IMG/VR virus record: IMGVR_UViG_3300035670_000030
Coordinates: 79,731 to 143,730 of that record
DNA length: 64,000 bases
Source of the DNA: a virus
Strand: one strand, 5' to 3'
Shown here: positions 47,371-61,293 of the stretch, piece by piece
Position numbering within the stretch: position 1 is the first letter of the stretch
How the letters are laid out: the number at the start of each line of letters is the position of its first letter
The notes under the pieces: generated by a model
Told to the model about the DNA's origin: nothing
The model's database searches: none
What the model saw: only the letters and a program-made list of their open reading frames with translations
Made by a program: the position numbers and the translations under genes

Positions 47371-47389
47371 ACACTAGTATTTTATAGGT

Positions 47390-47395: not shown

Positions 47396-47441
47396 AAAAA
47401 AATTCTAAAATCTCTTCTATAAACTTTATATAAAAATATAA

Positions 47442-47447: not shown

Positions 47448-47457
47448 ATAACTATTG

Positions 47458-48045: not shown

Positions 48046-48289
48046 AATCGGAACCATTAAATGGAAGAATTAGATTGTTATCAATAATGTATTGATTTAG
48101 TTCTTCTTCTGTGTCCGCAATGACCATTGTATATGGACTAGATGTTCCACCAGCACATTGAAGAGGTGGGATAATTACCTTATTAGTTTCGGCGTCATAA
48201 ATCATCCACCACTCTGTTTCGTTAGTCATGATACTCTCCACGCTAGAAACTACATCTGGCTTTTCTTGGTTTGAATATATTTTAATCAT
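48029..48289 (-). CDS. Small protein downstream of the LRR fibre (86 aa)
   Basis: 86 residues from ATG at 48289, chosen because this ATG overlaps the TGA of the upstream fibre gene (ATGA). A longer start 30 bases upstream is possible. It contains EWWMIYDAETNKVI followed by YTMVIADTEEELNQYIIDNNL, a short beta-beta-helix fold seen as small genes or fibre tails in phages. No known function; a fibre chaperone or accessory protein is a reasonable guess from its translational coupling to the fibre. Confidence 0.6.
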   Translation of the reverse strand: MIKIYSNQEKPDVVSSVESIMTNETEWWMIYDAETNKVIIPPLQCAGGTSSPYTMVIADTEEELNQYIIDNNLILPFNGSDSIDNI

Positions 48290-49449
48290 GGCGTATTTGT
48301 TCCTGTAGTTACAGACCAACCGCGACTTCGAAGAGTCGCTACATCAGTAATACCTTGTCCGGTTGGTTGAGAATTTGTTGCACCTCCTAGATTTAATACA
48401 CATGTCCCGCTAGCTGTAGTTCGACCAGCTGCAACAAAAGATGAAAGAATACTATTAACTGCTGTTGCGACAAGATTATTATTATCAGCTCTAAAAAATC
48501 CAAGAGTGCTAGGAAGAGAACCTCCAGCAAAACTTGTTAATTGATTGTTTTGACAGAAGAAAAACTGAAGCCCAGTAATAGTACTAAAACTAGGAATAGA
48601 TCCTGTTAATTGGTTGCTATTGCAATAAAAATCTCTAAGTGGTATATTATTATTTAAACTTGGAATCGGTCCTGTTAATTGGTTGTTATTACAATAAAAA
48701 AACTGAAGCCCCGTATTAGCACTGAGATTTGGAATCTGTCCTGTTAATTGATTTAATTCACAATGAAAATCTTGAAGTAGTGTATTATTACTTAAATTAG
48801 GAATAGGTCCTGTAAGCTTGGTTGTTCCTGATTGATTTTCACAACGAAAAGCTTCAAGTTTTGTGTGTGTTGCAAGACTTGGAATAGGCCCTGTTAACCT
48901 GTTTGATCCACAACGAAAATCCACAAGTTCTAAATTATTCGTAAAATTTGGAATTTGACCTGTTAGAAAATTACTATAACAATAAAAAGTTTTAAGATCT
49001 GTATTAAAGGACAAATTTGGAATACTCCCCGTTAGTTGATTTGTATAGCACCGAAAATCTAAAAGATTCACATTATTATCCAAATTTGGAATTGTTCCTG
49101 ATAACAAATTTCTATCACAATAAAAATCCTCAAGCTGTGTGTTAGCACTTAGACTTGGGATAGATCCAGTCAGCAGATTGAAAAAACAAAAGAATTCAAC
49201 TAATCCAGTATTTGAATTAATATTAGGAATACTTCCAGTAATACTATTTCTTGAATAATTCATGCTCACTAAATTTGGATTATTTTCAAATCCACTAATT
49301 GCAGTAATAGCATTATTAATACATGTAAAAGTTTTTAAATTAGGAAATGCAGATAAATTAACAGTTCCTCCTAATTTTGGAGAACTTGCACCACAATTAA
49401 TTTCTGTAATTATTGGGTTATTTTGTAATATTAAACTAATTCCAGCCAT
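48286..49449 (-). CDS. Leucine-rich-repeat fibre protein (LTGxIP type)
   Basis: 387 residues. About a dozen repeats of 22-23 residues follow the plan NxLTG[SPQ]IPxLxxNTxLxxFxCxxN from residue ~60 to ~330. This is the LTGxIP-type leucine-rich repeat best known in plant receptor proteins, with a conserved Cys in nearly every repeat. It should form an elongated solenoid, fit for receptor binding. It begins two codons after the TAA of the upstream 84-residue gene and in the same frame, so both may once have been one protein. Part of the second fibre cluster. Confidence 0.8.
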   Translation of the reverse strand: MAGISLILQNNPIITEINCGASSPKLGGTVNLSAFPNLKTFTCINNAITAISGFENNPNLVSMNYSRNSITGSIPNINSNTGLVEFFCFFNLLTGSIPSLSANTQLEDFYCDRNLLSGTIPNLDNNVNLLDFRCYTNQLTGSIPNLSFNTDLKTFYCYSNFLTGQIPNFTNNLELVDFRCGSNRLTGPIPSLATHTKLEAFRCENQSGTTKLTGPIPNLSNNTLLQDFHCELNQLTGQIPNLSANTGLQFFYCNNNQLTGPIPSLNNNIPLRDFYCNSNQLTGSIPSFSTITGLQFFFCQNNQLTSFAGGSLPSTLGFFRADNNNLVATAVNSILSSFVAAGRTTASGTCVLNLGGATNSQPTGQGITDVATLRSRGWSVTTGTNTP

Positions 49450-49452
49450 ATA

Positions 49453-49707
49453 TTAAGAAAATGTTTTGTTATAGCTTACACCTGAAGTTAAAATTTGAGA
49501 ACTTCCATCATTCCAATCGGCGGTAACTTGACCACCTATAAAACCAACGCTAAAAGCAGTTAATGTTTTACCAGATGGATTGTTAAAATCCCAAAAAAGA
49601 CCCGAAAGCGGAATTTCAATTTGTGGCCAAATTAATTTATTATTATAATAAACCTGTTTGGCTGATAAACCATTATATTTAACATCAACTGCATCGTTGA
49701 ATTTCAT
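49453..49707 (-). CDS. Fibre N-terminal module, separated from the LRR protein by one in-frame stop
   Basis: 84 residues. It contains the fibre-attachment motif VYYNNKLIWP and a PKD-like module (NPSGKTLTAFSVGFIGGQVTADWNDGSS) homologous to the N-terminus of the 738-residue Asp-box adhesin, where the chain continues without interruption. Here it ends KTFS-TAA, and the next in-frame codons are TAT then the ATG of the LRR gene. Stop readthrough, a split gene or a degraded N-terminus are the options. Its start overlaps the stop of the fibre gene upstream. Confidence 0.7.
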   Translation of the reverse strand: MKFNDAVDVKYNGLSAKQVYYNNKLIWPQIEIPLSGLFWDFNNPSGKTLTAFSVGFIGGQVTADWNDGSSQILTSGVSYNKTFS

Positions 49708-50804
49708 TATATTAAAATATATACTACTCCACTGATAGGAGTAATAGCATTATATTGCCCCGTGGTCATTACTTGCATTCCGCTAACACCACCAAGATTT
49801 TTAACGATACCGCTCGTTACAACATTTCCAGTTTCAATAGATAATTTGCTTGCACCAACAATTGAAATATTTGCACCAGAAAATATATAACTATCAGCTT
49901 CAAATGTTTTATCTCCGCTTATAGTTTGGCTACCAGTTGTAAATAGAACATTTTCACTAGTAATAAATCCACTTGGATTACTTGCTTGATAATAATTACT
50001 AATGCCAGAAACATCACCAGTAGTAAGCTGTTTATTTTCCCAATATCCACTAGCTAAATTATATTTGATAAAATCATTATTTTTTAAAGCAGAAAATTTA
50101 ACATTATTGTCTGTGCCTCCAAGTTCGCTACCAGCTGTGACACGAGCGAAAACAATACCATTGTTGCCCGATGTAGTGTTAAGACCTACTATAACTTTAG
50201 CATTAGGAGCCTGCGGTGGAATATTTGTAAAACCACCAGTTGTCGCAGGATCATAATAAAGTATAGAATCTACAGGGAAATTATTTGTGTCAATTCCGCG
50301 TATAGCACCAAAAGCAACAACATCACCATAATCATTAGCGGCAATTTCTTCTGCGGAAATACCCATAATCAATTGACCACTATTTCCAATATTTTGCGCT
50401 TCTCTTGCGAGCAGATATTCACTGTTTCCAATGCCACCTAAGGCCATAACTACTTTGCCTTTTCTTATGGTTTGTGCGGCTTTGACGCGATAAAATGATT
50501 TAAAGCCAATTGGATTAATAACGTCGCCATTATTCATTCCAATTTGCAAAGTCCCATAGTCAGCATTCCAATTCATCTGACCGTCTAAAACTTCTCCAGT
50601 GTTTGCGGTGTTAAAATTTAATATTCCACTAAAATTAGTGTTATTTATAAACGTTTTATTACCACTAATAGTTTGATTTCCAGTAATAGAAACTCCTGAA
50701 AGATTTAAAAGCGCCTGTCCAGCATTAGACGCATTCGTACCGCCGCCAGCAATAGTTCTAACGCCACTAGTTTCTACAATATTGGTACGAAATAATCTAT
50801 TCAT
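49707..50804 (-). CDS. Tail fibre protein with TGxQxISGxKTF modules
   Basis: 365 residues. It has two copies of the module TGxQTISGxKTF (SITGNQTISGNKTF near residue 45 and LFTTGSQTISGDKTF near 290), shared with fibre genes at 37449 and 39357. A middle domain (residues ~120-220, AAQTIRKGKVVMALGGIGNSEYLLAREAQ) resembles the small beta-barrel decoration or head-fibre domain seen in many phage fibres. The end VMTTGQYNAITPISGVVYILI parallels the LTQAEYNAL ending of other fibres. It probably links the second adhesin set to the virion. Confidence 0.75.
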   Translation of the reverse strand: MNRLFRTNIVETSGVRTIAGGGTNASNAGQALLNLSGVSITGNQTISGNKTFINNTNFSGILNFNTANTGEVLDGQMNWNADYGTLQIGMNNGDVINPIGFKSFYRVKAAQTIRKGKVVMALGGIGNSEYLLAREAQNIGNSGQLIMGISAEEIAANDYGDVVAFGAIRGIDTNNFPVDSILYYDPATTGGFTNIPPQAPNAKVIVGLNTTSGNNGIVFARVTAGSELGGTDNNVKFSALKNNDFIKYNLASGYWENKQLTTGDVSGISNYYQASNPSGFITSENVLFTTGSQTISGDKTFEADSYIFSGANISIVGASKLSIETGNVVTSGIVKNLGGVSGMQVMTTGQYNAITPISGVVYILI

Positions 50805-50806
50805 AA

Positions 50807-51112
50807 TTAAAATCTAATTTGTTTATGTTCTCCATTTACACGGCAATTGATGATGCCGCTTCCTGCTGGCAAAATAACGTCCACGCTAATCAATTGAGAG
50901 CCTTCAATTTTGTTGGCATCATAGATTGCTTGTGCGGAAGCAACGTCTTCAGAGGATGGTGTTTCAAACATCCTCTCTTTTACAGCGTCCAGCACGGCTT
51001 TGCGCTCTTCTGCGGGAGCTTCCCTGTTTTCAATAACAGCCTTTTCAGCCTCTGTTATGTTGGGATTAACTCTTTGTTTCCACTCGTTATTAATTAAGGT
51101 TAAATTTTTCAT
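50807..51112 (-). CDS. Small protein in the fibre cluster (101 aa)
   Basis: 101 residues. A charged helical N-terminal part (TEAEKAVIENREAPAEERKAVLDAVKER) precedes a C-terminal beta part (SVDVILPAGSGIINCRVNGEHKQIRF). No known family. It lies between the beta-helix and fibre genes, with gaps of 8 and 2 bp, so it is likely an accessory protein of the cluster such as a fibre chaperone. Base composition is noticeably less AT-rich than flanking genes. Confidence 0.6.
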   Translation of the reverse strand: MKNLTLINNEWKQRVNPNITEAEKAVIENREAPAEERKAVLDAVKERMFETPSSEDVASAQAIYDANKIEGSQLISVDVILPAGSGIINCRVNGEHKQIRF

Positions 51113-51120
51113 GGGATAAT

Positions 51121-52359
51121 TTATTGATCTATAATGTCATTGTTTCCGTCGATGCAGTTACGCATCAATCCCCCGCCACTGACGGGTTCAAATGTTCCAG
51201 AAGTCAGGCGACATTCAAAAAATTTACCAGTAAGGAAACCGCTAAGACCTCCGAAGCCATATAGGCCAGCTATACAATTTGTAAATGTTCCGCTAGCCGT
51301 GCCGCCATTACCGCCGAAGTTTCCATCACCACCGATGCAATCTATAAATGTTCCGCTTGCATTTCCAATAGTATCACCAAAGCTGTTAGTGCCAGCAATA
51401 CAGCGTATAAATATTCCGCTAGCAGCTCCAAGACTTCCGAAGCTAATATCACCAGCCCTGCAATCTGTAAATGTTCCGCTAGCTATACCACCATCACCAC
51501 CAAACGAAGCAAGACCACCTATGCAATTAGTAAATATGCCATTAGCAATACCAGCATTGCCACCAAAGCTGTAATTACCTGCAATGCAATCTGTAAATGT
51601 TCCACTTGCTACTCCGGAAGAACCACTAAACGAGTTAGAAGATCCAATACAACCCGTAAATGTACCACTAGATGTAATCCCAAAACACTCATCCCCACCT
51701 AGGCAATTAATGAATGTCCCACTAGCTAATCCGTACCCACCAAATGAACTATATTGTGCAATACAATTCGTAAATATACCGCTAGCTATTCCCGTAAATC
51801 CCCCACCAAAACTGTAATTACCTCCAATGCAATTTGTAAAAGTTCCACTTGATTGCCCTCCGTTACCGCCAAAACTTTCATCGCCCCCAACGCAATCTTC
51901 AAATCTTTGAAGTGGCAAATCGTTACCTATCTTAAAAGCCTGAGAACCAACACTAATACCCTGAACGCGTACATCATTTGCGGTTACATTGAAGGTGTTG
52001 CCCGTAATGGTGACGGCAGGAATTGCCCCTTTTTCTAGCTTTTGCGCTCCGAGGCCAATGATATCCACATACTGCGCGTCAATTGCAAGTTCAGATGATA
52101 AAGAATAATTACCTGGCATTATAATTAAACATGCCCTATTTGTAGAACTTTTAGCCTGACCATTTGGAGTTAAAGCCTTTGCTTCATTATATTTTGTTGC
52201 TAAATTATCTTCAGGTTCTGCTACTATATAAGTATCAGTACTTTTAATTACAGCCTGTTGAGATATCAATTCTTCAATTGTAGATAAATCTATATCTCCA
52301 GGTGTTGTTGTAGAAGGATACTCCTGTTCTGCCTTTCTAATTATATTTCTAATAGCCAT
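51121..52359 (-). CDS. Beta-helix fibre with tandem ~23-residue repeats
   Basis: 412 residues. The N-terminal ~140 residues include a helix and a pectate-lyase-type start (RACLIIMPGNYSLSSELAI). From ~150 to ~390 about a dozen repeats follow the plan ASGTFTDCIGGxxSFGGxGG, with Cys stacked at one position per turn, the hallmark of a right-handed parallel beta helix. Repeats are also visible at DNA level in the plus strand (TTCCGCTAGC-type words). Likely a receptor-binding or depolymerase-like spike, though no catalytic residues could be identified. First gene of the second fibre cluster, behind a GTGTAA motif 10 nt upstream. Confidence 0.8.
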   Translation of the reverse strand: MAIRNIIRKAEQEYPSTTTPGDIDLSTIEELISQQAVIKSTDTYIVAEPEDNLATKYNEAKALTPNGQAKSSTNRACLIIMPGNYSLSSELAIDAQYVDIIGLGAQKLEKGAIPAVTITGNTFNVTANDVRVQGISVGSQAFKIGNDLPLQRFEDCVGGDESFGGNGGQSSGTFTNCIGGNYSFGGGFTGIASGIFTNCIAQYSSFGGYGLASGTFINCLGGDECFGITSSGTFTGCIGSSNSFSGSSGVASGTFTDCIAGNYSFGGNAGIANGIFTNCIGGLASFGGDGGIASGTFTDCRAGDISFGSLGAASGIFIRCIAGTNSFGDTIGNASGTFIDCIGGDGNFGGNGGTASGTFTNCIAGLYGFGGLSGFLTGKFFECRLTSGTFEPVSGGGLMRNCIDGNNDIIDQ

Positions 52360-52369
52360 TAATTATTAA

Positions 52370-52375
52370 TTACAC
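52370..52375 (-). promoter_or_regulatory. Candidate late-promoter motif GTGTAA
   Basis: AAGTGTAATTAATAATTAATG: the motif ends 10 nt before the beta-helix gene start. It lies immediately after the last codon of the phoH gene and would head the second fibre cluster. Confidence 0.5.
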
Positions 52376-53101
52376 TTATTTTTTTATATTTTCAAATCTT
52401 TCTATGATATAAGACAATATTTCAGATCTTACAATATCTTCCTTGCCAAATTCAAAAGTATAAATACCATGTTTTCTAGATTCTTCTGTATCAAACATAT
52501 CAAATACTTTACTAAATCCACTTTGTTTAATATCTGATTGTTGAGCATCTCCACATATAAATAATGTTGAAAATTTCGCCATTCTTGTCATTACTAATAG
52601 AAAGTCTTCTACACGACAATTTTGAGCTTCATCCATAATAAAAGCAGCGTTAGAAATATTTAAACCACGCAAGAAACCCAACGGAATCCCAACAATTCTT
52701 TCATCGGCCATCAGTGCTTTAACATGTGGTTCTATTAATAATTCATTTAATTTATCTACCATTGGATGAGTATAAGGAGACATTTTTTCTTCCGATGTCC
52801 CTTTAATATATCCAATACCATGCACAGAAGCCTCGACTGGAACGCGGCTGTAATATATTTCACTAATTTTTTTATCTTTAATTTTTTGTAGTGAGCAGTA
52901 TACGGCAAGAAGAGTTTTACTAGTACCAGCCACACCTTTAGTAATAATTACTTTTGTATGTTTATCACTGGCTAATTTAATAAACTCTTTTTGTTTATCT
53001 GTCCATGGTAATTCTCTTATATTGAGTTCAATGTTTGATTTAGTTTTTTTCTTCTCCGTATACGGAGAAACGTCACGAGATTTTTCTTTTTTTGACTTCA
53101 T
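52376..53101 (-). CDS. phoH: PhoH-like P-loop ATPase
   Basis: 241 residues from ATG 53101; an upstream GTG at 53125 would overlap the promoter-like motif, so I prefer the ATG. Walker A GVAGTSKT lies near residues 56-63 and Walker B FIMDEAQN near 165-172, with GDAQQSDI (sensor/motif III) downstream. This is the core of PhoH proteins, predicted RNA-binding ATPases frequent in phages of many hosts. The Lys-rich N-terminal ~35 residues are poorly conserved. The phage role is unknown. It is divergent from Hsp20. Confidence 0.9.
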   Translation of the reverse strand: MKSKKEKSRDVSPYTEKKKTKSNIELNIRELPWTDKQKEFIKLASDKHTKVIITKGVAGTSKTLLAVYCSLQKIKDKKISEIYYSRVPVEASVHGIGYIKGTSEEKMSPYTHPMVDKLNELLIEPHVKALMADERIVGIPLGFLRGLNISNAAFIMDEAQNCRVEDFLLVMTRMAKFSTLFICGDAQQSDIKQSGFSKVFDMFDTEESRKHGIYTFEFGKEDIVRSEILSYIIERFENIKK

Positions 53102-53117
53102 GAAAGAACATATATAT

Positions 53118-53123
53118 TTACAC
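53118..53123 (-). promoter_or_regulatory. Candidate promoter motif GTGTAA for phoH
   Basis: TAGTGTGTAAATATATATG lies 16 nt upstream of the preferred phoH ATG at 53101. It argues for that start over the upstream GTG. Confidence 0.45.
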
Positions 53124-53169
53124 ACTATACAATTGAGACACTTTTTATTTTATTTTTCTTTATTTTTTT

Positions 53170-53199
53170 TTGAACATTTTAATATACAATGAGTCTAAT
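53170..53199 (+). promoter_or_regulatory. Sigma70-like promoter of the Hsp20 gene
   Basis: TTGAAC (53170-53175), an 18-bp AT-rich spacer and TCTAAT (53194-53199) lie 8 nt before the ATG at 53208. The mRNA leader would be at most one or two bases, as in the GC-richer region to the right. Confidence 0.5.
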
Positions 53200-53207
53200 A
53201 TCACACT

Positions 53208-53615
53208 ATGAATATTAACGCAAGCCTCGTACCTAAAACTTATAGTGGTTCTAACACATGGGAAATTGTAGATCTGATTGATCAAAGTTGGCCCAAATGG
53301 GCATCAATGTTTGATGTTGTGACAAGTCCGTCATATAGTTTTTCAAATAGGGTTGGATTTAAAGAAAGCGATAAAGATTCTTTCAATTTAGAGATAGAAC
53401 TCCCACGTTTTCGCAAAGAAAATATTAAACTCTCTGCTGAAAATAATGTTTTACATATTAGTGCAGAACAAGATAATCTTAAATTCTATCATTCGGTTAG
53501 TATCCCCACAACTTTAGATACAAATACAATTGAAGCTAAACTTGATCATGGTGTACTCACGATCTCCGCCCAAAAAGCCGAGCAAGCTAAAACAAAATTA
53601 ATTGAAATTAAATAA
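53208..53615 (+). CDS. Hsp20/alpha-crystallin small heat-shock protein
   Basis: 135 residues. Residues ~55-135 carry the alpha-crystallin domain: FNLEIELPRFRKENIKLSAENNVLHISAEQ in segments, then the conserved AKLDHGVLTISAQK near the C-terminus. An IEIK end resembles the IxI anchor of this family. It is an ATP-independent holdase that could protect phage or host proteins during infection. Small Hsps are common in large marine and freshwater phages. It is divergently placed to phoH, with a promoter giving almost no leader. Confidence 0.9.
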   Translation: MNINASLVPKTYSGSNTWEIVDLIDQSWPKWASMFDVVTSPSYSFSNRVGFKESDKDSFNLEIELPRFRKENIKLSAENNVLHISAEQDNLKFYHSVSIPTTLDTNTIEAKLDHGVLTISAQKAEQAKTKLIEIK

Positions 53616-53618
53616 AAC

Positions 53619-53647
53619 TTTACATAAGAATAAATTATCGTTATAAT
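53619..53647 (+). promoter_or_regulatory. Consensus sigma70 promoter of the glycosyltransferase operon
   Basis: TTTACA (53619-53624), 17-bp spacer and TATAAT (53642-53647) lie 8 nt before the ATG at 53656. This is the closest match to the canonical sigma70 consensus in the window. The predicted transcript begins at or next to the start codon, so it would be leaderless or nearly so. Confidence 0.75.
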
Positions 53648-53657
53648 TAACGATAAT
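53634..53657 (+). promoter_or_regulatory. Perfect palindrome over the -10 box and start codon (operator candidate)
   Basis: ATTATCGTTA and TAACGATAAT form a perfect 10-bp inverted repeat with a TAAT centre. It covers the TATAAT box, the probable transcription start and the first two bases of the ATG at 53656. A dimeric repressor bound here would block RNA polymerase. The palindrome also could fold as DNA or RNA over the start codon. Confidence 0.7.
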
Positions 53658-54693
53658 GGAAAATATTTATTTTTTTCACTGGCCATCTGATTTAGGTGGC
53701 GCGGATACCAGACTAAAAGATCTTATACAACTTTTTTCAGAATCGAATAAATATAATTTATTCTGCATCCCAAATGATGATTTTAGATTAAAAGAAAAAA
53801 ATAATATCGATTTCCTAACAAAGAATAACGTAAAAATTCTAACTTGGGATACTTTACCAATTCATACAAAAGGTTATGCCATAGCTTTTTGTAATTTTAG
53901 ATTATTTCAAGAATCTTGGCGACTAGAAAAAATAAAAAATATTGGCCTAAAATTTATTTGGTCAAATGATATGATGTGGTCTTCACAAGAAGAAGCCAGT
54001 GCTTTTGAAAAAAATTTAGTTTCGGCCGCTATATTCACAAGCGATTTTCATCAAAACCGTTTAATTAAAGTTAACCCCTCATTTAATAAAGTTAAAAATT
54101 ATATTGTTCCTAATTATTTTAATTCTGATAAATACAAAAAAAATAATAAAAAATCATATTTAGATGATAAATTTGTTATTGGGAAATTATCAAGAGCAGA
54201 ATGGACTAAATATGGTGAAAATTTTCCACTGTTTTATAGTAAAATAAAAATACCAAATGCTCATTTTAGATTTATGGGCTGGAATGAAAAGTTGGAGCAA
54301 AAATACAGTTGGTTTAAATTTGGAAATAATTTTGAGCTTTTAAAAGAAAACCAAGAAAGTATTGTTGAATTTTTATCACAACTTGATTTATATGTTTTTA
54401 CTTGTCATCATAATTATACAGAAAATCAATCTAGATCTATTATTGAAGCACAATTATTGGGAATTCCATGTATCGTACCTAATGAAGGAAATTTTCCTAA
54501 TATGATTTGGCATGAAAGAACTGGATTTGTATATAACAATATTGAAGAATGTTATAGTTATATTAATAAATTATATAATGATAAAATGTTATTAAATACT
54601 ATGAGTTATAATTCAAAAGAAATTATAAAATTTATTTGGGGTAATAAACATTCCCAATTACAAACTTGGGAAAAAATCTTTGCGTCGATATGA
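53656..54693 (+). CDS. GT4-type glycosyltransferase
   Basis: 345 residues, GT-B fold pattern. The N-terminal ..WPSDLGGADTRLKDL resembles the donor/acceptor-side Rossmann start. The C-terminal half has LSRAEWTKYGENFPLF and YTENQSRSIIEAQLLGIPCIVPNEG, the EX7E-like motif region that binds the nucleotide sugar. It should transfer a sugar from a nucleotide-sugar donor; the acceptor is unknown (host surface glycan, virion protein or modified base). First gene of a plus-strand group with the next gene in ATGA overlap. Confidence 0.82.
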   Translation: MENIYFFHWPSDLGGADTRLKDLIQLFSESNKYNLFCIPNDDFRLKEKNNIDFLTKNNVKILTWDTLPIHTKGYAIAFCNFRLFQESWRLEKIKNIGLKFIWSNDMMWSSQEEASAFEKNLVSAAIFTSDFHQNRLIKVNPSFNKVKNYIVPNYFNSDKYKKNNKKSYLDDKFVIGKLSRAEWTKYGENFPLFYSKIKIPNAHFRFMGWNEKLEQKYSWFKFGNNFELLKENQESIVEFLSQLDLYVFTCHHNYTENQSRSIIEAQLLGIPCIVPNEGNFPNMIWHERTGFVYNNIEECYSYINKLYNDKMLLNTMSYNSKEIIKFIWGNKHSQLQTWEKIFASI

Positions 54694-55490
54694 GTAAAAA
54701 ATTCTGTTATTGGACAATCAGTTGGGGCGATTATGATTATATATCACAATCCATGGTTAACTCAGCTAGAGAAGTTGGTATCGATGAAGATTTTTATGCT
54801 TTTACAGAAAAACCAATTAAAAATTGCTACAATACAAGTTTAAATAAAAATATAAAATTAGACTCTTTACAATTTTTTAAATTTGAATATTTGAAACACG
54901 AAATTCAAAAATTAGATTATGATTATTTTGTATTTATTGATGCTGATCATTATTTTGTCAGAAAACCAGACATTACACCTTTAGATATAATTAAAGATAG
55001 TCCATGGCATTCGTTTTTAGAAAGCCCGATTAATACTGAAAAGACAAAAAGACCAGATTGGTGGCAAGTACCTAATATTGTAATGACAACATTTATGAAA
55101 AAAAATGGTGTGATGTCTCATGAAATCAGAAATAGTAACGGAGGTTTTTGGATATGTAAAAAACAATTTATTGAACAGGCTTGTAATTTAGCTTATGAGT
55201 TTCATAATAAATTAAGAAATTATAATATAACAGTTCCAGAGGAAGTCTCTATCGCCTATCTTTCTCATTTAATGTCTCCCATCATTCAAGATAGGTATTT
55301 AGAAAATTTTACAAATTATTGGGCTTCTGATTGGACTGAAAATTTTAAAGATCAAGTACCTGAAAATCGACAATGGGAGTATACTTCTTACATGACTTAT
55401 GAAAAAATACAGGTTAGCCCTGCGATTGTTCATGCCATGAGAAGTAAGAAAGCTTTAATTGAATTAGGTAAAAAATATGTTAATTATTAA
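54690..55490 (+). CDS. GT-A-type glycosyltransferase with DxD motif
   Basis: 266 residues from ATG 54690, which overlaps the TGA of the preceding glycosyltransferase (ATGA); an earlier start would extend into that gene. YDYFVFIDADHYFV at ~residues 79-92 provides the DxD metal/nucleotide-sugar site. SNGGFWICKKQF follows. No membrane segment. Coupled translation with the GT4 enzyme indicates a joint pathway, perhaps sequential sugar addition. Confidence 0.8.
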   Translation: MSKKFCYWTISWGDYDYISQSMVNSAREVGIDEDFYAFTEKPIKNCYNTSLNKNIKLDSLQFFKFEYLKHEIQKLDYDYFVFIDADHYFVRKPDITPLDIIKDSPWHSFLESPINTEKTKRPDWWQVPNIVMTTFMKKNGVMSHEIRNSNGGFWICKKQFIEQACNLAYEFHNKLRNYNITVPEEVSIAYLSHLMSPIIQDRYLENFTNYWASDWTENFKDQVPENRQWEYTSYMTYEKIQVSPAIVHAMRSKKALIELGKKYVNY

Positions 55491-55510
55491 TAAATAATGT
55501 AAATTTATAG

Positions 55511-55909
55511 GTGGCAAGACTATTTTACTTATTATTAATTTTAATAATCATATTGGGCATTTTGCCTAATTATTCGACTAAGCCGCCACAAGAAGATATT
55601 ATTCTTAATAATGGGTGTTTAATTTATGCCATTCAGTATCAACATGCAATAGAGGCTAAAAATATTCTAAATGAGTCCGATGTTTGGGCAAAAATATTAT
55701 TATATAGATTAGTAGGGAATAAATCTGGACATGCTGTTACCTTATATGTTTATAAAAATAAAACATATGTGTATGATCCAGCTTTCGCCAGTTATCAATT
55801 AACAGAATTCCCAGTTTATAATCCTTATAAAATAGTAAGTCTTATGCACCCAATGAGCAAAATTGCTTGGGCTGAATATGCTGAAAATGTTTTGTTGTAT
55901 AACCCCTAG
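55511..55909 (+). CDS. Secreted transglutaminase-like cysteine peptidase candidate
   Basis: 132 residues from a GTG start. An N-terminal hydrophobic signal/anchor (FYLLLILIIILGILP) precedes a small domain with a Cys-His-Asp triad: C36 (NNGCLIYA), H74 (KSGHAVTLYV) and D89 (YVYDP). The spacing fits bacterial transglutaminase-like cysteine peptidases and papain-like folds. The domain would lie outside the inner membrane. It lies 20 bp behind the glycosyltransferase pair. Possible roles are envelope modification or superinfection exclusion, but nothing in the sequence decides. An AATGTAAATTTATAGG sequence precedes it. Confidence 0.6.
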   Translation: MARLFYLLLILIIILGILPNYSTKPPQEDIILNNGCLIYAIQYQHAIEAKNILNESDVWAKILLYRLVGNKSGHAVTLYVYKNKTYVYDPAFASYQLTEFPVYNPYKIVSLMHPMSKIAWAEYAENVLLYNP

Positions 55910-55945
55910 TTTAGCCTGTTCAAAATTATTGCCTAGCCCCATTCA

Positions 55946-56047
55946 TTAACGAGTGCGGCTGGGAAAAAATTCTGCAAGCATTGCTATATATCCAACACAT
56001 GTAACGCCTAAATTGACCATAGTCATTATAGTAGCAAATAATATCAT
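55946..56047 (-). CDS. 33-residue membrane peptide with perfect Shine-Dalgarno site
   Basis: An ATG at 56047 opens a 33-codon frame ending in TAA. The peptide begins MILFATIMTMVNLGVT and continues CVGYIAMLAEFF, one hydrophobic segment, with a short basic tail PSRTR. Seven bases upstream is AAAGGAGGTG, the only full Shine-Dalgarno sequence I saw in the window. A TGTAATATATAG motif lies 30 nt upstream. Such small phage membrane peptides can act in superinfection exclusion or lysis control; no assignment can be made. It is transcribed opposite to the preceding plus-strand gene and ends 37 bp from it. Confidence 0.6.
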   Translation of the reverse strand: MILFATIMTMVNLGVTCVGYIAMLAEFFPSRTR

Positions 56048-56053
56048 TCGAAA

Positions 56054-56063
56054 CACCTCCTTT
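56054..56063 (-). promoter_or_regulatory. Strong Shine-Dalgarno site AAAGGAGGTG
   Basis: Ten bases complementary to the 3' end of 16S rRNA, 6 nt from the ATG at 56047. The site shows that host ribosomes can use Shine-Dalgarno pairing, although most genes here lack it. Confidence 0.8.
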
Positions 56064-56137
56064 CATATACTATATATTACAGCAATTTAAATGCCAGAAA
56101 AGTTACAATATTGTTTCATTATGAATTAACAACATAT

Positions 56138-57001
56138 CTATTTAATTCTATATTCTTTGCAAATTTTTTTATATAGTGCATACGTATTTTTACGAATTTC
56201 TTTTACCTTTTTTCCATCCCACAAATGGAGTACGCCTACTTTTAAACCATAAGAATAACTAAATTGTGAATATTTAATTGGTATTAAGGTAGTATATGTT
56301 TTTAATTTCTTTTTCATCATTATCAGAAATAAAACTTGCTCAATTATGACTGGGATTGTTGCATAGGCAAGTTCATCGAATGTGGTTTTAAATTTTGTTA
56401 TTAATTCATCGCCATCTAAAAAATCTTTATGTTCTATAATACAATCAATCATTTTTTGCGCGGTTTCATTTATTATTGGAATATTATTTTCTATACAGGA
56501 TCCAAATATAGCAAAATTGACAGACATGAATTTTTGGTCTAAATCTAAATTTAATGATTTATTTAGAACATCTAAGATGACCGCGACCCCATTTTTATAA
56601 AAATCGCATCCCTTTCCAAAGTTTGAACTCCAAGGTTCATCATGGTAGGTAAAAAATGGTGCATTCTTAATTTTTTCTAAAAAAGAGTTATTTAATATAA
56701 AGAAATCAAAATCAATATGTATAAATGGACGTTTTTCCATGCTCATTGTCAAAATTTTACCAGCACTCCATACACTTCTAGGTAATTTATTAGTTATTTT
56801 ATCATCCAATAAAATTATTTCATCGTAAGGAATATTTTTTAAAAGTTCGGCTCCTATTTTATCTGTATATAATACTGTTTTCAATCCCGTATTCTTTTTG
56901 GCGTAATACTGCGAGCAAGTAGCAAATATTTTTGTATCTTCATCAGTAGCATTACTTCCAATTCTATTCCCCAAAAAACTAAATATAATAACTGGTTCCA
57001 T
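56138..57001 (-). CDS. Glycosyltransferase-like protein (DxD, 287 aa)
   Basis: 287 residues. The N-terminal beta-alpha fold ends with HIDFDFFI at residues 95-102; the D97-x-D99 pair is the metal/nucleotide-sugar motif of GT-A enzymes. FTYHDEPWSSNFGKGCDFYKNG follows, and the C-terminal SYGLKVGVLHLWDGKK provides the conserved late His motif. It lies opposite to the other two glycosyltransferases with its own upstream TGTAATATATAGG sequence. Probably modifies the host surface or virion components; substrate unknown. Confidence 0.72.
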   Translation of the reverse strand: MEPVIIFSFLGNRIGSNATDEDTKIFATCSQYYAKKNTGLKTVLYTDKIGAELLKNIPYDEIILLDDKITNKLPRSVWSAGKILTMSMEKRPFIHIDFDFFILNNSFLEKIKNAPFFTYHDEPWSSNFGKGCDFYKNGVAVILDVLNKSLNLDLDQKFMSVNFAIFGSCIENNIPIINETAQKMIDCIIEHKDFLDGDELITKFKTTFDELAYATIPVIIEQVLFLIMMKKKLKTYTTLIPIKYSQFSYSYGLKVGVLHLWDGKKVKEIRKNTYALYKKICKEYRIK

Positions 57002-57397
57002 TATTTATCCTATATATTACATAAATATTCTTAAATTGTTACGGTTAAATTAAATTAATTAAAACAAAATACCCCGACCAAATTTCCAGATTGATTTGTT
57101 TCTTGATTAGTACAATTAGTCTATTTTTTTAAAAAAAGGTAGGGGGTACATATATATAGAAATACCCACTCTTCTATACATAAGAATAAGGATATGTATA
57201 GGAATATAAGAGAGATGGATTAAATTAAATTAATTAAAATAAAATGTCTAGAGATTGAAATTTCACCCCCCCGCCACCTAAAATTAAAACGAACGTTCGA
57301 ATTTTTTCAAAAATGGGGAGGGGTTATCAACAAAAATAATTTGCAGAATCTTAAAAAAATCGCTTGCTTTTCTGCCGTCCTGTGGTAGAGTGTAGAC
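57002..57397 (+). other. Gene-free boundary between AT-rich and GC-richer regions
   Basis: No convincing gene in 396 bp. It contains a 26-bp AT-only-like direct repeat (57045-57070 and 57220-57245, one mismatch), a CGAACGTTCG palindrome at 57289-57298 near an A/T tract, a G-rich GGTAGGGGG run near 57138, and an A-rich tract leading into the first promoter of the GC-richer region. Composition changes sharply within this stretch. Confidence 0.6.
57364..57391 (+). promoter_or_regulatory. Leaderless-type promoter, unit 1
   Basis: TTGCTT, 16-bp spacer, TAGAGT preceded by TGTGG; ATG follows after exactly 6 nt at 57398. An AAAAAAATCGC tract lies upstream of the -35. Confidence 0.75.
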
Positions 57398-57580
57398 ATG
57401 AAGAAGAAATACTACACCAGCACAGAGATCATCGAATACGCCGAACAGACTGGCGCGGTCTGCACGTTCGCCAGCCTCAACCTCCGCATCTTCAAGGGAT
57501 GGACTGCGAAGGGTAGCTATGAGGTCAAGTTCCACAGGATCGAGCCTTGCGTGTGGCAGAAAAAAATCGTCAAAAAATAA
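57398..57580 (+). CDS. Small basic protein (60 aa), leaderless
   Basis: 60 residues, MKKKYYTSTEIIEYAEQTG..., mixed helix/strand, net basic, no known family. The ATG lies 6 nt behind a -10 box and no Shine-Dalgarno sequence is present, so the start is fixed by the promoter. First gene of the GC-richer region and first member of unit 1. Codon use (ATC, AAC, CTC, TTC) differs strongly from the AT-rich late genes. Confidence 0.65.
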   Translation: MKKKYYTSTEIIEYAEQTGAVCTFASLNLRIFKGWTAKGSYEVKFHRIEPCVWQKKIVKK

Positions 57581-57581
57581 C

Positions 57582-57609
57582 TTGACTTTTTAAGGATCTC
57601 TGATAGATT
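57582..57609 (+). promoter_or_regulatory. Leaderless-type promoter within unit 1
   Basis: TTGACT, 16-bp spacer, TAGATT; ATG at 57616 after 6 nt. It starts two bases after the stop of the preceding gene. Confidence 0.75.
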
Positions 57610-57615
57610 AAAGAC

Positions 57616-57846
57616 ATGAACACATACGATAACGAAATCATCCACAAAGGCAAAGAATACTACCTTTCGACGGAGTATGACTTTGATCACACTGATACCC
57701 TGCAACTCTCTGGCTTTGTCTTGACTGATGAAGACGGCGAAGAAATCTCGCAAGAGGCCTTCGAAGCAAACGAAGATCTTTATGATCACGTTTGCACTAT
57801 CCTTGCAAACGAAAGCGCCGTCTGCTATGGCGGCGCACCTTGCTAA
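57616..57846 (+). CDS. Small acidic protein (76 aa), leaderless
   Basis: 76 residues, acidic (LTDEDGEEISQEAFEANEDLYDH), beginning MNTYDNEIIHKGKEYYLSTEYDF. No recognised family. Small acidic proteins of this size in phage early regions often bind host enzymes or mimic DNA, but that is only a possibility here. It has its own promoter directly upstream. A 28-residue membrane peptide follows 4 bp after the stop. Confidence 0.65.
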   Translation: MNTYDNEIIHKGKEYYLSTEYDFDHTDTLQLSGFVLTDEDGEEISQEAFEANEDLYDHVCTILANESAVCYGGAPC

Positions 57847-57850
57847 CACT

Positions 57851-57937
57851 ATGACACACATCATTATGACATACATCGCAGAAGCACTCGCCGTGGTGCT
57901 CATCCTCCTGCTTGGCGTTGCGATCCTGTCGATCTAA
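57851..57937 (+). CDS. Single-pass membrane peptide (28 aa)
   Basis: ATG at 57851 gives 28 residues: MTHIIMTYIAEALAVV followed by the hydrophobic LILLLGVAILSI. It lacks its own promoter and begins 4 bp after the preceding gene, in the junction CTAACACTATGACACA that recurs at 59571-59586. A longer frame running in from 57728 overlaps the previous gene and is unlikely. Ends unit 1 just before the first 70-bp repeat element. Confidence 0.5.
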   Translation: MTHIIMTYIAEALAVVLILLLGVAILSI

Positions 57938-57940
57938 GTT

Positions 57941-58010
57941 GTTGTAAATCAACAGCTTACACAGGCGCGCCCCGCCGCGCGCCGTAAGTCCTTGATAATG
58001 AAGCACTTAC
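57941..58010 (+). repeat. 70-bp intergenic element, copy 1
   Basis: Left arm GTTGTAAATCAACAGCTTAC, core containing GGCGCGCCCCGCCGCGCG, then GTAAGTCC and right arm TTGATAATGAAGCACTTAC. The arms are exactly 50 bp apart. It follows unit 1 by 3 bp. Confidence 0.9.
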
Positions 58011-58063
58011 AAATGTCAAGCAAAAAAGATAAAAAAAATTTTACACAATCGCAAAAAAATCCC

Positions 58064-58091
58064 TTGCTTTTTTCGTGCGCTGTGCTATTCT
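58064..58091 (+). promoter_or_regulatory. Leaderless-type promoter, unit 2
   Basis: TTGCTT, 16-bp spacer, extended -10 TGTGCTATTCT; ATG at 58098 after 6 nt. A-rich tract (AAAAAAATCCC) upstream. Confidence 0.85.
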
Positions 58092-58097
58092 ATAAAC

Positions 58098-58445
58098 ATG
58101 AAAGATAAAAAACTATTCAACGTCAACGGAACCCTCTGCAAGCTCGTCATCTCGGAGGATCACGAGGATGACTGCATCAAGCTCTGGCACGAACTCGTCA
58201 GCGTAGAGACTGGCAAAACCATCCACACCCTCTCGTGGTCGCCTTACTCCATCCCTTCAGATGAAGAAGTGCAACAGATCATCGACCTCGGTTTGCCAGA
58301 TGGATTGCGTTGGCACAACTCTCATCCCATGTCTGGGATGAACTTCTGCTCTGACATTCTCGCCATGTTCCTCGCTGGTGAGGAGCATCCCCAAGGCGGC
58401 AAGCTGGAGCTTGTGTTCCGTGTGCGTCATGCGAATGCCGCATAA
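58098..58445 (+). CDS. Hypothetical protein (115 aa), leaderless
   Basis: 115 residues, MKDKKLFNVNGTLCKLVISEDHEDD..., a beta-rich start followed by WHELVSVETGKTIHTLSWSPYSIP and a helical part. No family recognised. The start is placed by the promoter. It shares the opening MKDK with the first gene of unit 4 (60141) but little else. The next gene has its own promoter inside the 43-bp gap. Confidence 0.65.
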   Translation: MKDKKLFNVNGTLCKLVISEDHEDDCIKLWHELVSVETGKTIHTLSWSPYSIPSDEEVQQIIDLGLPDGLRWHNSHPMSGMNFCSDILAMFLAGEEHPQGGKLELVFRVRHANAA

Positions 58446-58453
58446 AAAATCTC

Positions 58454-58482
58454 TTGCAATAAACCTCAACATCCCATATCCT
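58454..58482 (+). promoter_or_regulatory. Leaderless-type promoter within unit 2
   Basis: TTGCAA, 17-bp spacer, TATCCT; ATG at 58489 after 6 nt. Confidence 0.65.
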
Positions 58483-58488
58483 AACAAT

Positions 58489-58707
58489 ATGAACATCACC
58501 AACGACCACTTCAACACGCAACCGCAATCCGACGAATATGCCAGCGAGCACGAGGAAGTGCGCGGCACGTTTGCGGCTGAACCAGCCGCAGAGCAGGAGC
58601 CGCAACCCTACGATGGGTGGGAAGGCTGCTGGCCTGGGGATGGATCGGGCATGGACGACCTCGCGGACATGCACGCGAACGAAGCCAATGACTACTACGA
58701 CGAGTAG
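58489..58707 (+). CDS. Small acidic protein, member of a two-copy family
   Basis: 72 residues. Residues ~5-20 (NDHFNTQPQSDEYASE) match residues ~8-24 of the 44-residue protein at 63091 (NDDFNTQIQSDEFASE), so the two are paralogues. The remainder is very acidic with many Pro, Gly and Tyr. The start chosen is the ATG 6 nt behind the -10 box; a longer upstream frame would run into the previous gene. Both paralogues are followed at their unit's end by the same TGTCATAG motif and a hairpin terminator. Confidence 0.65.
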   Translation: MNITNDHFNTQPQSDEYASEHEEVRGTFAAEPAAEQEPQPYDGWEGCWPGDGSGMDDLADMHANEANDYYDE

Positions 58708-58784
58708 TGTCATAGTCGTGTCATAATTTTCCGAACGTTTCGATGCGTGTCTCCATGGCGCGGGAATAAACGAAGAGGAAACGA

Positions 58785-58808
58785 AGCGCCCGTGTTCAAA
58801 CGGGCGTT
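58785..58808 (+). terminator. Hairpin terminator of unit 2
   Basis: CGCCCGT pairs with ACGGGCG (loop GTTCAA) and can extend by AG/TT. The T-rich tract after it is short. TGTCATAGTCGTGTCATA at 58708-58725 precedes it, as at the end of unit 7. Confidence 0.65.
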
Positions 58809-58840
58809 TCAATTTGCTGAAATTCAATGTTGCGTAAACC

Positions 58841-58909
58841 ATTGATATTCAACCACTTACATGGGCGCGCGGGGCGTGCGCGCGTAAGTCCTTGATATTC
58901 AACGACTTA
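58841..58909 (+). repeat. 70-bp intergenic element, copy 2 (most diverged core)
   Basis: Left arm ATTGATATTCAACCACTTAC, core ATGGGCGCGCGGGGCG-type, then GTAAGTCC and right arm TTGATATTCAACGACTTAA. The 50-bp arm spacing is kept although the core differs from the other copies. Confidence 0.88.
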
Positions 58910-58924
58910 AGTAGTGCCTTACGA

Positions 58925-58966
58925 ACCCGCATGAATACTGGCTTCGCGGGTGTCAAGCTTTTTTTT
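58925..58966 (+). terminator. Possible hairpin with T-run ahead of the RNA gene
   Basis: ACCCGC pairs with GCGGGT across a 15-base loop. GTCAAGC and then eight T residues follow. This could insulate the downstream RNA promoter from readthrough. Confidence 0.45.
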
Positions 58967-59000
58967 GCAAAAAAATTTTCATCGAATCGAAAAAAACTGG

Positions 59001-59028
59001 TTGCTTTCTGCGCGTTCTGTGGTATTCT
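59001..59028 (+). promoter_or_regulatory. Unit 3 promoter driving a non-coding RNA
   Basis: TTGCTT, 16-bp spacer, extended -10 TGTGGTATTCT, the same class as the protein-coding units. The transcription start predicted 6-7 nt downstream (59035) coincides with the first base of a closed RNA fold rather than an ATG. Confidence 0.8.
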
Positions 59029-59034
59029 GTATAC

Positions 59035-59142
59035 ATTGATAGGACAAGAGGTTTTCCACCGAGAAGGGTTGATCGCCGGAAAAAAGGTGGAAACGTAAGC
59101 GTCCGACCGTAATGGCAAGGCCTACTCCTATCAAAACTTTTT
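59035..59142 (+). ncRNA. Candidate structured non-coding RNA, ~105 nt
   Basis: No ORF follows the promoter. TTGATAGGA (59036-59044) pairs perfectly with TCCTATCAA (59126-59134), closing the whole segment, and AACTTTTTC follows. Inside, TTTCCACC (59053-59060) pairs with GGTGGAAA (59086-59093) over a 25-nt loop, and a GGC-AAG-GCC mini-hairpin occurs at 59114-59122. It does not match tRNA, tmRNA, RNase P, 6S, hammerhead, twister or pistol patterns I know. Promoter and closing stem agree on both ends of the transcript. It is probably a phage regulatory or decoy RNA. No homology evidence is available here. Confidence 0.6.
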
Positions 59143-59143
59143 C

Positions 59144-59171
59144 TTGACTCTCACCCTTAACCTGCTAAAAT
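59144..59171 (+). promoter_or_regulatory. Leaderless-type promoter within unit 3
   Basis: TTGACT, 16-bp spacer, TAAAAT; ATG at 59179 after 7 nt. This is the only coding case with 7 rather than 6 nt. It begins just after the T-run of the RNA gene. Confidence 0.75.
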
Positions 59172-59178
59172 AATCACT

Positions 59179-59370
59179 ATGAATAGAAACTACAGAAGCT
59201 GGCGCGACGAAGAACGCGAAGCAACCCTCGACTACCCGCTGGCCGTGGATCGTGAAGATCCCGCCTACCAGCACAACCCGAACGCCTACGAGCGTGAACT
59301 TGAGCGGTTGAACCGCTTGGAGGGTTGGGAGCGTAGCCGTGGCGGTTACTACCGCCGCAGCTACCGCTGA
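59179..59370 (+). CDS. Small Arg/Tyr-rich protein (63 aa), leaderless
   Basis: 63 residues, rich in Arg, Glu and Tyr (NAYERELERLNRLEGWERSRGGYYRRSYR) with a helical middle and an RGG-like basic aromatic end, which suggests nucleic-acid binding. No family recognised. The start is set by the promoter. The stop precedes the next promoter by 10 bp. Confidence 0.6.
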   Translation: MNRNYRSWRDEEREATLDYPLAVDREDPAYQHNPNAYERELERLNRLEGWERSRGGYYRRSYR

Positions 59371-59380
59371 AAAAAGTCGC

Positions 59381-59409
59381 TTGACTTTCAGCCCCATTTC
59401 AACGATACT
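59381..59409 (+). promoter_or_regulatory. Leaderless-type promoter within unit 3
   Basis: TTGACT, 17-bp spacer, GATACT; ATG at 59416 after 6 nt. Confidence 0.65.
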
Positions 59410-59415
59410 TTTAAC

Positions 59416-59574
59416 ATGACAGAAAACACCACAACTGGCTGGCCCGAAGTCTGGAACTTCGACGAACCCCAAGACGATAACCTCACGCCCGAACAAGCGT
59501 TCGACATCCTTTTCGGCTATGCCGAAGAACGTCACCGCAACGATCCGTGCGCTCATCCCGAACCCAAACACTAA
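59416..59574 (+). CDS. Small acidic protein (52 aa), leaderless
   Basis: 52 residues: MTENTTTGWPEVWNFDEPQ, then DDNLTPEQAFDILFGYAEERH and a polar end. No family recognised. Its ATG is 6 nt from the -10 box. The frame is short but fully supported by the promoter and by tight spacing to the next ATG (TAACACTATG). Confidence 0.6.
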   Translation: MTENTTTGWPEVWNFDEPQDDNLTPEQAFDILFGYAEERHRNDPCAHPEPKH

Positions 59575-59578
59575 CACT

Positions 59579-59809
59579 ATGACACAACAAGACGGCATCA
59601 TCAAGTCGCTTGAAACCCTCATCAAGCACGAAAAAACAATCCAAGCTCAAGAGGCTTGCATCGTAGAACTGCGCGACATTCTCGCAAAAGCTCTCCACAC
59701 CATCACCATGCACGAACACAAGCTAAACCTCTTGTGTGGCGTGTCCACCACTCTCGCCGTCGAACTGACTGCGGTGAAAAACAAACAGGTTTCTTTCGGA
59801 GTCAACTAA
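59579..59809 (+). CDS. Small helical protein (76 aa)
   Basis: 76 residues. The N-terminal two thirds form an amphipathic helix or coiled coil (GIIKSLETLIKHEKTIQAQE, then ELRDILAKALHTITMHEHKL). No known family. I chose the ATG at 59579, 4 bp after the previous stop in a CTAACACTATGACACA junction identical in type to that at 57845, over an in-frame start at 59519 that would overlap the previous gene. No Shine-Dalgarno sequence. Confidence 0.65.
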   Translation: MTQQDGIIKSLETLIKHEKTIQAQEACIVELRDILAKALHTITMHEHKLNLLCGVSTTLAVELTAVKNKQVSFGVN

Positions 59810-59810
59810 C

Positions 59811-59966
59811 ATGAGCAAAATCATTATGACAATCGACACGCGCCCTCTTGCGAGGGCGATTGAACGTAGCGTTCGCAAGACCACTTGCAAGCCGTCCTTC
59901 GCCATGCGTGTCAAGAAAAAATTCGCGCGCAGGGCTAAGTTTTTTCGCGGTTGGTCTGAAGAGTAA
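59811..59966 (+). CDS. Small very basic protein (51 aa)
   Basis: 51 residues with many Arg and Lys, especially MRVKKKFARRAKFFRGW near the end. It begins 1 bp after the preceding stop, so translation is probably coupled. The charge suggests nucleic-acid or ribosome binding. The stop codon lies immediately before the third 70-bp element and closes unit 3. Not a recognised family. Confidence 0.55.
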   Translation: MSKIIMTIDTRPLARAIERSVRKTTCKPSFAMRVKKKFARRAKFFRGWSEE

Positions 59967-59969
59967 AGC

Positions 59970-60039
59970 GTTGTAAATCAATGACTTACGGCGGCGCGCC
60001 CCGCCGCGCGGCGTAACCCATTGTAAATCAACGACTTAC
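59970..60039 (+). repeat. 70-bp intergenic element, copy 3
   Basis: Left arm GTTGTAAATCAATGACTTAC, core GGCGGCGCGCCCCGCCGCGC, then GGCGTAACCCA and right arm TTGTAAATCAACGACTTAC. It begins 4 bp after the stop codon of unit 3. Confidence 0.92.
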
Positions 60040-60106
60040 AGAATCATCTACGCAAGTGCCGTGCCAAGTGTGACTGTGTCATAAAAATAAAAAATAAAAA
60101 AATCTC

Positions 60107-60134
60107 TTGCTTTTCTGTGGCTCTGTGCTATTCT
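60107..60134 (+). promoter_or_regulatory. Leaderless-type promoter, unit 4
   Basis: TTGCTT, 16-bp spacer, extended -10 TGTGCTATTCT; ATG at 60141 after 6 nt. AAAAATAAAAAAATCTC lies just upstream. Confidence 0.85.
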
Positions 60135-60140
60135 TTAAGC

Positions 60141-60320: not shown

Positions 60321-60321
60321 T

Positions 60322-60350
60322 TTGACAATCACCACAAAACCTAACAGAAT
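60322..60350 (+). promoter_or_regulatory. Leaderless-type promoter within unit 4
   Basis: TTGACA (perfect consensus), 17-bp spacer, CAGAAT; ATG at 60357 after 6 nt. Starts one base after the previous stop codon. Confidence 0.7.
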
Positions 60351-60356
60351 CATAAC

Positions 60357-60545: not shown

Positions 60546-60549
60546 TCAC

Positions 60550-61287: not shown

Positions 61288-61293
61288 GTATTC

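Follow-up and report, generated by a model that had tools for sequence, protein, structure and literature searches.

Organization of the hsp20–glycosyltransferase region

The window analyzed here is the whole 64,000-nucleotide stretch of DNA that forms the right end (79731–143730) of a 143,730-base phage record in IMG/VR, and positions are given within it. The region of interest has five genes, one for a PhoH-like protein, one for a small heat-shock protein (hsp20), two for putative glycosyltransferases (GT1 and ORF2), and ORF3; these are listed in Table 1 with the two promoters and the inverted repeat discussed below.

Table 1. Genes, promoters and repeat arms of the hsp20–GT1–ORF2–ORF3 region of the window.
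Feature	Position	Strand	Remarks
PhoH-like gene	52376..53125	-	PF02562, phrog_170; divergent from hsp20
hsp20 promoter GAAC-N18-TCTAAT, AlgU/sigmaE-like	53172..53199	+	8 nt before hsp20 ATG
hsp20, small heat-shock protein	53208..53615	+	PF00011, phrog_432
-35 element TTTACA of predicted GT1 promoter	53619-53624	+	TTTACAT invariant in five distinct sequences
5' arm ATTATCGTTA	53634-53643	+	3'-terminal two bases shared with the 5' end of the -10; core TTATCGTT invariant
-10 element TATAAT of predicted GT1 promoter	53642-53647	+	17-nt spacer from -35
3' arm TAACGATAAT	53648-53657	+	AACGATA invariant; includes first two ATG bases
GT1, GT-B type glycosyltransferase (Glycos_transf_1), 345 aa	53656..54693	+	PF00534; start conserved in alignment
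ORF2, predicted GT-A fold, GT6-like glycosyltransferase	54690..55490	+	ATGA overlap with GT1 stop
ORF3, 132 aa, no assigned function	55511..55909	+	Directly after hsp20 in cassette-free relatives

GT1 is recognized by its Pfam domain, and ORF2, which has no Pfam match, by its predicted fold. The AlphaFold model of ORF2 has a mean pLDDT of 96, and Foldseek aligns it (E 3.6e-9, TM about 0.5, 10–16% identity) with enzymes that we take to be the GT6 family (ABO-type, BoGT6a). Since ORF2 thus has the predicted GT-A fold of GT6-like enzymes, the preliminary description of this locus, made from the sequence alone, is right in speaking of a glycosyltransferase pair. The two genes are adjacent in 45 of 46 relatives, the exception being L011, whose contig stops short of ORF2. 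Searches for bacterial homologues of GT1 and for named phage relatives gave no match.

The gene order of relatives places the pair within an otherwise continuous unit. Among 23 hsp20 loci, the gene or genes that follow hsp20 are the GT pair in ten (L223, L224, L225, L227, L230, L231, L232, L233, L237, and L239, with the L231 sequence ending behind GT1), ORF3 in four (L226, L228, L229, and L235), and others in nine. In the four ORF3 loci hsp20 and ORF3 are adjacent with no cassette between them, from which the GT pair is read as an insertion between these two genes; a GT1 search of G013, the record behind L235, also gave no match, although an empty result alone is no proof. Morons are accessory genes that have been inserted into phage genomes with their own promoter, and by its gene order GT1–ORF2 is a putative moron-like cassette inserted in the hsp20–ORF3 transcription unit. 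Reading by eye revealed no terminator behind hsp20 in the cassette loci, so that hsp20 RNA should continue into GT1; GC-rich terminators with T-runs, also read by eye, are located behind hsp20 in L241–L244. No plus-strand terminator-like site that could serve the cassette itself is listed between ORF2 and ORF3.

The cassette adjoins a leftwards gene (56138–57001, -) coding for a DUF6734 protein (PF20508), relatives of which (32–36%) are found behind ORF2 in L004, L005, L007, L008, L015, and L016. Farther to the right, between 57600 and 64000, the GC content rises from about 0.3 to 0.45–0.50 and the ORFs have a different look, one of 227 aa matching PF17338 GP88; this segment, for which the phages collection gave no close match, is possibly a chimeric contig end or a recent insertion.

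The hsp20 promoter

The sequence TTGAAC-N18-TCTAAT is positioned 7–8 nt before the hsp20 ATG in 15 of the 16 distinct upstream sequences that represent 24 hsp20 loci, with spacers that differ by 48% on average between sequences. The full motif is present once per genome, at hsp20, in G000 (the phage's own record), G001, G004, and G013, and absent from the six other records searched. It resembles AlgU/sigmaE-type promoters, for which the accessible text of PMC10651043 gives the AlgU consensus GAACTT-N16/17-TCtgA; the hexamers and spacing fit, but the hsp20 site does not keep the TT after GAAC, and its message would be leaderless. We suggest that the phage hsp20 may answer to host envelope stress.

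Leaderless genes in the phage lineage

The GT1 -10 hexamer is separated from the ATG by 8 nt, with no Shine-Dalgarno sequence. A similar layout is seen elsewhere in the lineage: TATAAT ends 4–11 nt ahead of an ATG in 15 of the 121 genes of G000, 13 of 158 in G001, and 10 of 95 in G004 (4 and 0, 2 and 0, and 0 and 0 genes, respectively, in two control bins of equal width; ORF starts were assigned mechanically). About one gene in ten of these phages is therefore of the leaderless sigma70 kind by this measure. Promoter-like sites matching the consensus at 10 of 12 positions and followed by an ORF start within 60 nt have that start at 4–11 nt in 18 of 30 cases (binomial p = 3e-9), and many orthologous promoters retain the hexamer and the distance where other bases have changed. 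Shine-Dalgarno-like motifs are rare in the phage's own record (14 of 121 genes; 1 of 121 in the control). The preliminary description had drawn attention to a promoter with almost no leader, which is real at GT1 but not special to it, because sigma70-type promoters without a leader are widespread in this lineage. Nor are leaderless phage genes a novelty in themselves, as PMC5312081 remarks, in its accessible text, that phage transcripts are often leaderless.

Two more general patterns were considered and rejected. Sigma70-like sites as such are in excess at 11 of 12 matches (18, versus 8.3 expected) but not at 10 of 12 (142 versus 135), and palindromes are no more than a weak general trait of the phage's promoters (Fisher p = 0.002 for 19 promoter registers, one of them the window site).

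The GT1 promoter and its inverted repeat

At 53619–53658 the preliminary description had reported a very strong sigma70 promoter, TTTACA-N17-TATAAT, overlapped by a perfect palindrome that reaches into the glycosyltransferase start codon. The sequence is exactly so, and the promoter is supported as a strong sigma70-type one, matching the consensus at 11 of 12 positions and having the top promoter-like score within 44001–64000. The repeat ATTATCGTTA-TAAT-TAACGATAAT (53634–53657) overlaps the -10 element and reaches as far as the second base in the GT1 ATG (53656–53658), with transcription predicted to start at about 53653–53655, within the 3' arm. The repeat spans the -10, the start, and part of the ATG, but its arms are separated by a 4-nt centre, and the palindrome is not continuous.

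The 24-mer occurs once in the window with up to three mismatches allowed and in none of 100 shuffles. A genome-wide search for the palindrome, proposed in the preliminary description as a check, was run on the whole 143,730-base record and found this single copy, with no other even at three mismatches. When the hexamers and the ATG are fixed and the remainder is shuffled, so good an inverted repeat is expected with p = 0.004; 10-bp inverted repeats are nonetheless not rare in this AT-rich window, which contains 31 pairs with arms no more than 30 nt apart, and the GT1 repeat ranks 24th by length among them. Judged from the sequences of relatives, conservation is the stronger evidence for the repeat than are these chance statistics. 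No Rfam family was matched.

Conservation of the repeat among relatives

Scans of IMG/VR identified 22 and later 46 loci encoding GT1, giving 47 starts with that of the window. The core TTATCGTT-N5/6-AACGATAA is found before GT1 in nine of these (the window, L002, L003, L004, L005, L009, L011, L012, and L013), and in all nine hsp20 is immediately upstream. The 8-bp arm cores are thus exact in 9 of 11 starts with hsp20 directly upstream and in none of the 36 others, L006 and L010 being the two that have hsp20 upstream of GT1 and lack the core. A scan of viral contigs for TTTACAT-N6-AAATTATCGTTATAAT matched eight contigs, all eight of which are these GT1 loci.

The arms were compared in the window and in L004, L005, L009, and L011, which make up five distinct sequences; the proteins of the four relatives are 59–79% identical to that of the window. 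They show 0 of 150 pairwise base differences, as against 36 of 60 for the six bases between the -35 element and the 5' arm in the same five sequences. The arm spacing is changed by 1 nt in L009, and both L009 and L011 retain the right arm though the ATG lies 2–3 nt farther downstream, such that coding does not explain the conservation of that arm. The cores of the nine repeat-bearing starts are identical in sequence, with no compensatory change in any pair, which favours recognition of the sequence itself, as pure RNA pairing would permit such changes. In a tree of 28 GT1 proteins the presence of the repeat requires at least two changes, and loss in L010 and in L006/L007 appears to be the simplest reading.

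A predicted RNA hairpin at the GT1 start

RNA folds were computed for 33 distinct GT1 starts, from -36 to +16, and compared with dinucleotide shuffles. The GT1 start of the window has z-scores of -3.7 to -5.5 in segments of 40 to 52 nt and of -2.2 in the widest segment tested; two of the three AUG bases are in the stem. A stable hairpin (p <= 0.05) is predicted in 9 of 12 starts where a same-strand gene ends 35–59 nt upstream (L176, L181, and L182 share this context and have no significant hairpin). Of the 21 starts with a divergent or overlapping upstream gene, two (L174 and L175) have such a hairpin, in both of them with the start codon unpaired. Four segment sizes agree (7–9 of 12 versus 0–3 of 21), but the p-values for this association (Fisher p = 0.0002; Mann-Whitney p 0.00005–0.0007) are not to be taken literally, since the context classes were drawn after the data had been seen, the ORF calls are mechanical, and the loci share ancestry.

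Comparisons of particular loci carry more weight. In L006 and L010, from which the repeat has been lost, another hairpin is predicted to fold with the start codon buried. In L007 hsp20 is located elsewhere and the hairpin is absent. L172 and L177, which are remote in the tree and have another gene upstream, show an unrelated predicted hairpin with the AUG in its stem. The computed accessibility of the start codon is better on the cassette's own mRNA than on read-through RNA in 7 of 10 loci, with a modest gain in the window (0.41 versus 0.21), a tie in L009, and the opposite in L005 and L011; in L009 and L011 the ATG lies 2–3 nt outside the hairpin. A hairpin at every internal leaderless promoter was considered as a wider rule and rejected (47 internal versus 15 divergent promoters in three records, p = 0.43).

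Elsewhere in the same record, outside the window, a gene for a 95-aa protein (L155:12075–12362, -) has a similar element, with a TATCAT -10 in the 5' arm and the ATG in the 3' arm. The 9-bp hairpin arms are identical in six of six sequences (its own and L208–L212), in which the loops and flanks are variable. In the loci checked, a gene on the same strand ends 34–45 nt upstream; in one the neighbour upstream is a GIY-YIG-like ORF, as judged from its sequence. The 95-aa protein has no assigned family, and its gene is followed in relatives by one coding for 412 aa.

Other hairpins at gene starts were seen in this lineage. In one, AATAAGG..CCTTATT encloses a start codon in its loop and is conserved in three records (L156:12450–12788, -; L196:18470–18808, +; L202:16545–16883, -), with the start assignment uncertain. 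In another, in G004 (L206:12599–12814, -), the Shine-Dalgarno sequence GGAGGTGC pairs with an upstream GCACC in a strong predicted hairpin (z = -5.1), which is a candidate RNA switch.

Interpretation and alternatives

Our preferred reading, to which we give slightly less than an even chance, is that an RNA hairpin insulates the inserted GT1–ORF2 pair from read-through out of hsp20. The cassette would supply its own sigma70-type promoter, with an mRNA starting 1–3 nt before the GT1 ATG and hence leaderless, and the inverted repeat over the -10, the start, and the ATG would most likely act in RNA. We infer that a longer transcript entering from hsp20 would fold the hairpin at the GT1 start and block translation there, and that the cassette's own mRNA, starting inside the 3' arm, would be missing the 5' arm and be translated as a leaderless message. 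With the hairpin closed on read-through only, glycosyltransferase expression would depend on the housekeeping promoter and be shielded from hsp20 transcription, whether stress-driven or read-through. In favour of this reading are the link between hairpin and gene context, the replacement hairpins of L006 and L010, the missing hairpin of L007, the unrelated one of L172 and L177, the altered arm spacing in L009, the element before the 95-aa gene, the cassette-free loci, and the terminators behind hsp20 in L241–L244. Against it are the lack of compensatory changes in the arms, the ATG outside the hairpin in L009 and L011, the accessibility values of L005, L009, and L011, the absence of a significant hairpin in L176, L181, and L182, and the similar hairpin strength of internal and divergent leaderless promoters.

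Because compensatory changes are lacking in the arms, the built-in operator of the preliminary description has to be taken seriously as a rival. A dimeric phage or host repressor would in that case bind TTATCGTT-N6-AACGATAA over the -10/+1 region, exclude RNA polymerase, and switch the GT pair. A position over -10/+1 is typical for repression, and that of the repeat suits it; the arms are identical in the five distinct sequences next to a freely varying hexamer, and in L009 and L011, where the ATG is displaced, the right arm keeps to the promoter. There is a precedent in T4 I-TevI, which has an operator over its hairpin promoter (accessible text of PMC2988022). However, the site is found once per genome in the phage's own record and in three of 12 relatives' records and is absent from the other nine, those 12 records hold orthologous sites only, and no second promoter with the motif was encountered in viral contigs. 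The sole exact match in a host genome falls inside a coding gene, the arm spacing is altered in L009, the repeat is lost in L006 and L010 although a hairpin persists, and no HTH_3 or MazE-type protein, the two families searched, was found in eight related records. We consider an operator possible but rather doubtful; no sharing of it with other phage or host genes was found in the records, viral contigs, and host genomes searched, and nothing supports the associated proposal of control early in infection or in a carrier state. The hsp20 context, the hairpin on read-through RNA, and the inserted character of the gene pair do not figure in the preliminary description. RNA insulation and an operator could possibly act together, as in I-TevI (PMC2988022, accessible text). 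The looser motif TTATCGTT-N3-7-AACGATAA is present in at least 120 stretches of viral contigs, 94 among the matches listed having a 3-nt gap; by eye, many of these (contigs of 2–4 kb) appear to be RNA phages with the motif in replicase coding sequence, and have no bearing here.

The hairpin might instead serve hsp20, in mRNA 3'-end processing or as an exonuclease barrier, with the hiding of the GT1 start a by-product. No start without hsp20 directly upstream has the repeat (9 of 11 starts with it do), and L006 and L010 hold a hairpin of other sequence in the same place, as this would predict; yet by eye no such hairpin is present where ORF3 succeeds hsp20 (L226, L228, L229, and L235), the repeat is in register with the -10 and the ATG, and a similar element precedes the unrelated 95-aa gene, and we regard a 3'-end role as improbable. 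An intrinsic terminator between hsp20 and GT1 is very unlikely, for although the stem-loop is located behind a stop codon, it has two G-C pairs only, no T-run follows within 12 nt of the 3' arm in any of the five sequences, the element is absent from the list of terminator-like sites, and the true terminators of the lineage (L241–L244) differ in look. That promoter constraints are all there is to the repeat, which would be a by-product of AT-rich promoter sequence and shared descent, we consider quite improbable. In AT-rich promoters TATAAT is commonly overlain by small palindromes, and no inverted-repeat excess was found at 11 other GT promoters; against this stand the exact conservation of the arms adjoining freely varying bases, the p-value of 0.004 within the promoter, and the retention of the right arm when the ATG moves.

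Taking the hairpin as insulation from hsp20 read-through, a wider reading is conceivable, though we hold it to be on the unlikely side: that a lineage with leaderless sigma70 units carries movable cassettes in which the -10 and the start codon form the two arms of a hairpin, the gene being opened by transcription that starts inside and closed by transcription that enters from outside. In the GT cassette, housekeeping-sigma and stress-sigma (AlgU/sigmaE-like) hsp20 programmes would then be split on the same strand with neither a terminator nor a repressor. If the hairpin insulates as proposed, the GT1 locus also offers a testable map of a phage relying on leaderless mRNAs, in which a phage heat-shock gene seems to heed a host envelope-stress sigma factor.

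Comparison with known systems

The GT pair is like a moron cassette in being located in a phage operon, having its own promoter, and being absent from relatives, and is unlike one in that no terminator of its own was found, such that its insulation would be translational. The predicted fold of ORF2 is common to GT6 glycosyltransferases. As in the leaderless genes of Actinobacteria and Deinococcus-Thermus, whose TA-rich -10 elements lie some 10 bp ahead of the start (accessible text of PMC3160421 and PMC12340547), the GT1 -10 hexamer is 5–10 nt before the ATG, but GT1 belongs to a lineage of uncultured phages, and consensus -35 elements accompany the -10 there.

The closest parallel is in phage T4. 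For e, soc, 49, and I-TevI, a hairpin covers the translation start on long transcripts from upstream, and the mRNA made from a promoter directly before the gene lacks the 5' strand of this hairpin (PMC3014915 and PMC2988022, accessible text); I-TevII/III, segB, and Aeh1 mobE are further members of this scheme in the same accessible text. We found no description of a leaderless version of such promoter-in-hairpin control in the open-licence literature. GT1 is like T4 e and I-TevI in having a predicted hairpin at the translation start and a promoter placed so that its own predicted transcript lacks the 5' arm. It differs in that the T4 promoters are late ones (TATAAATA) and the hidden element is a Shine-Dalgarno sequence, whereas GT1 has a sigma70-type TTTACA-N17-TATAAT and no Shine-Dalgarno sequence, its message is predicted to be leaderless, and its start codon is at the edge of the stem. 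If the insulation reading is true, it would operate with host sigma70 and leaderless translation, so that a short symmetric sequence alone would insulate a cassette, and the hiding of starts on early read-through RNA, as in T4, would be a general route for gene insertion into phage operons.
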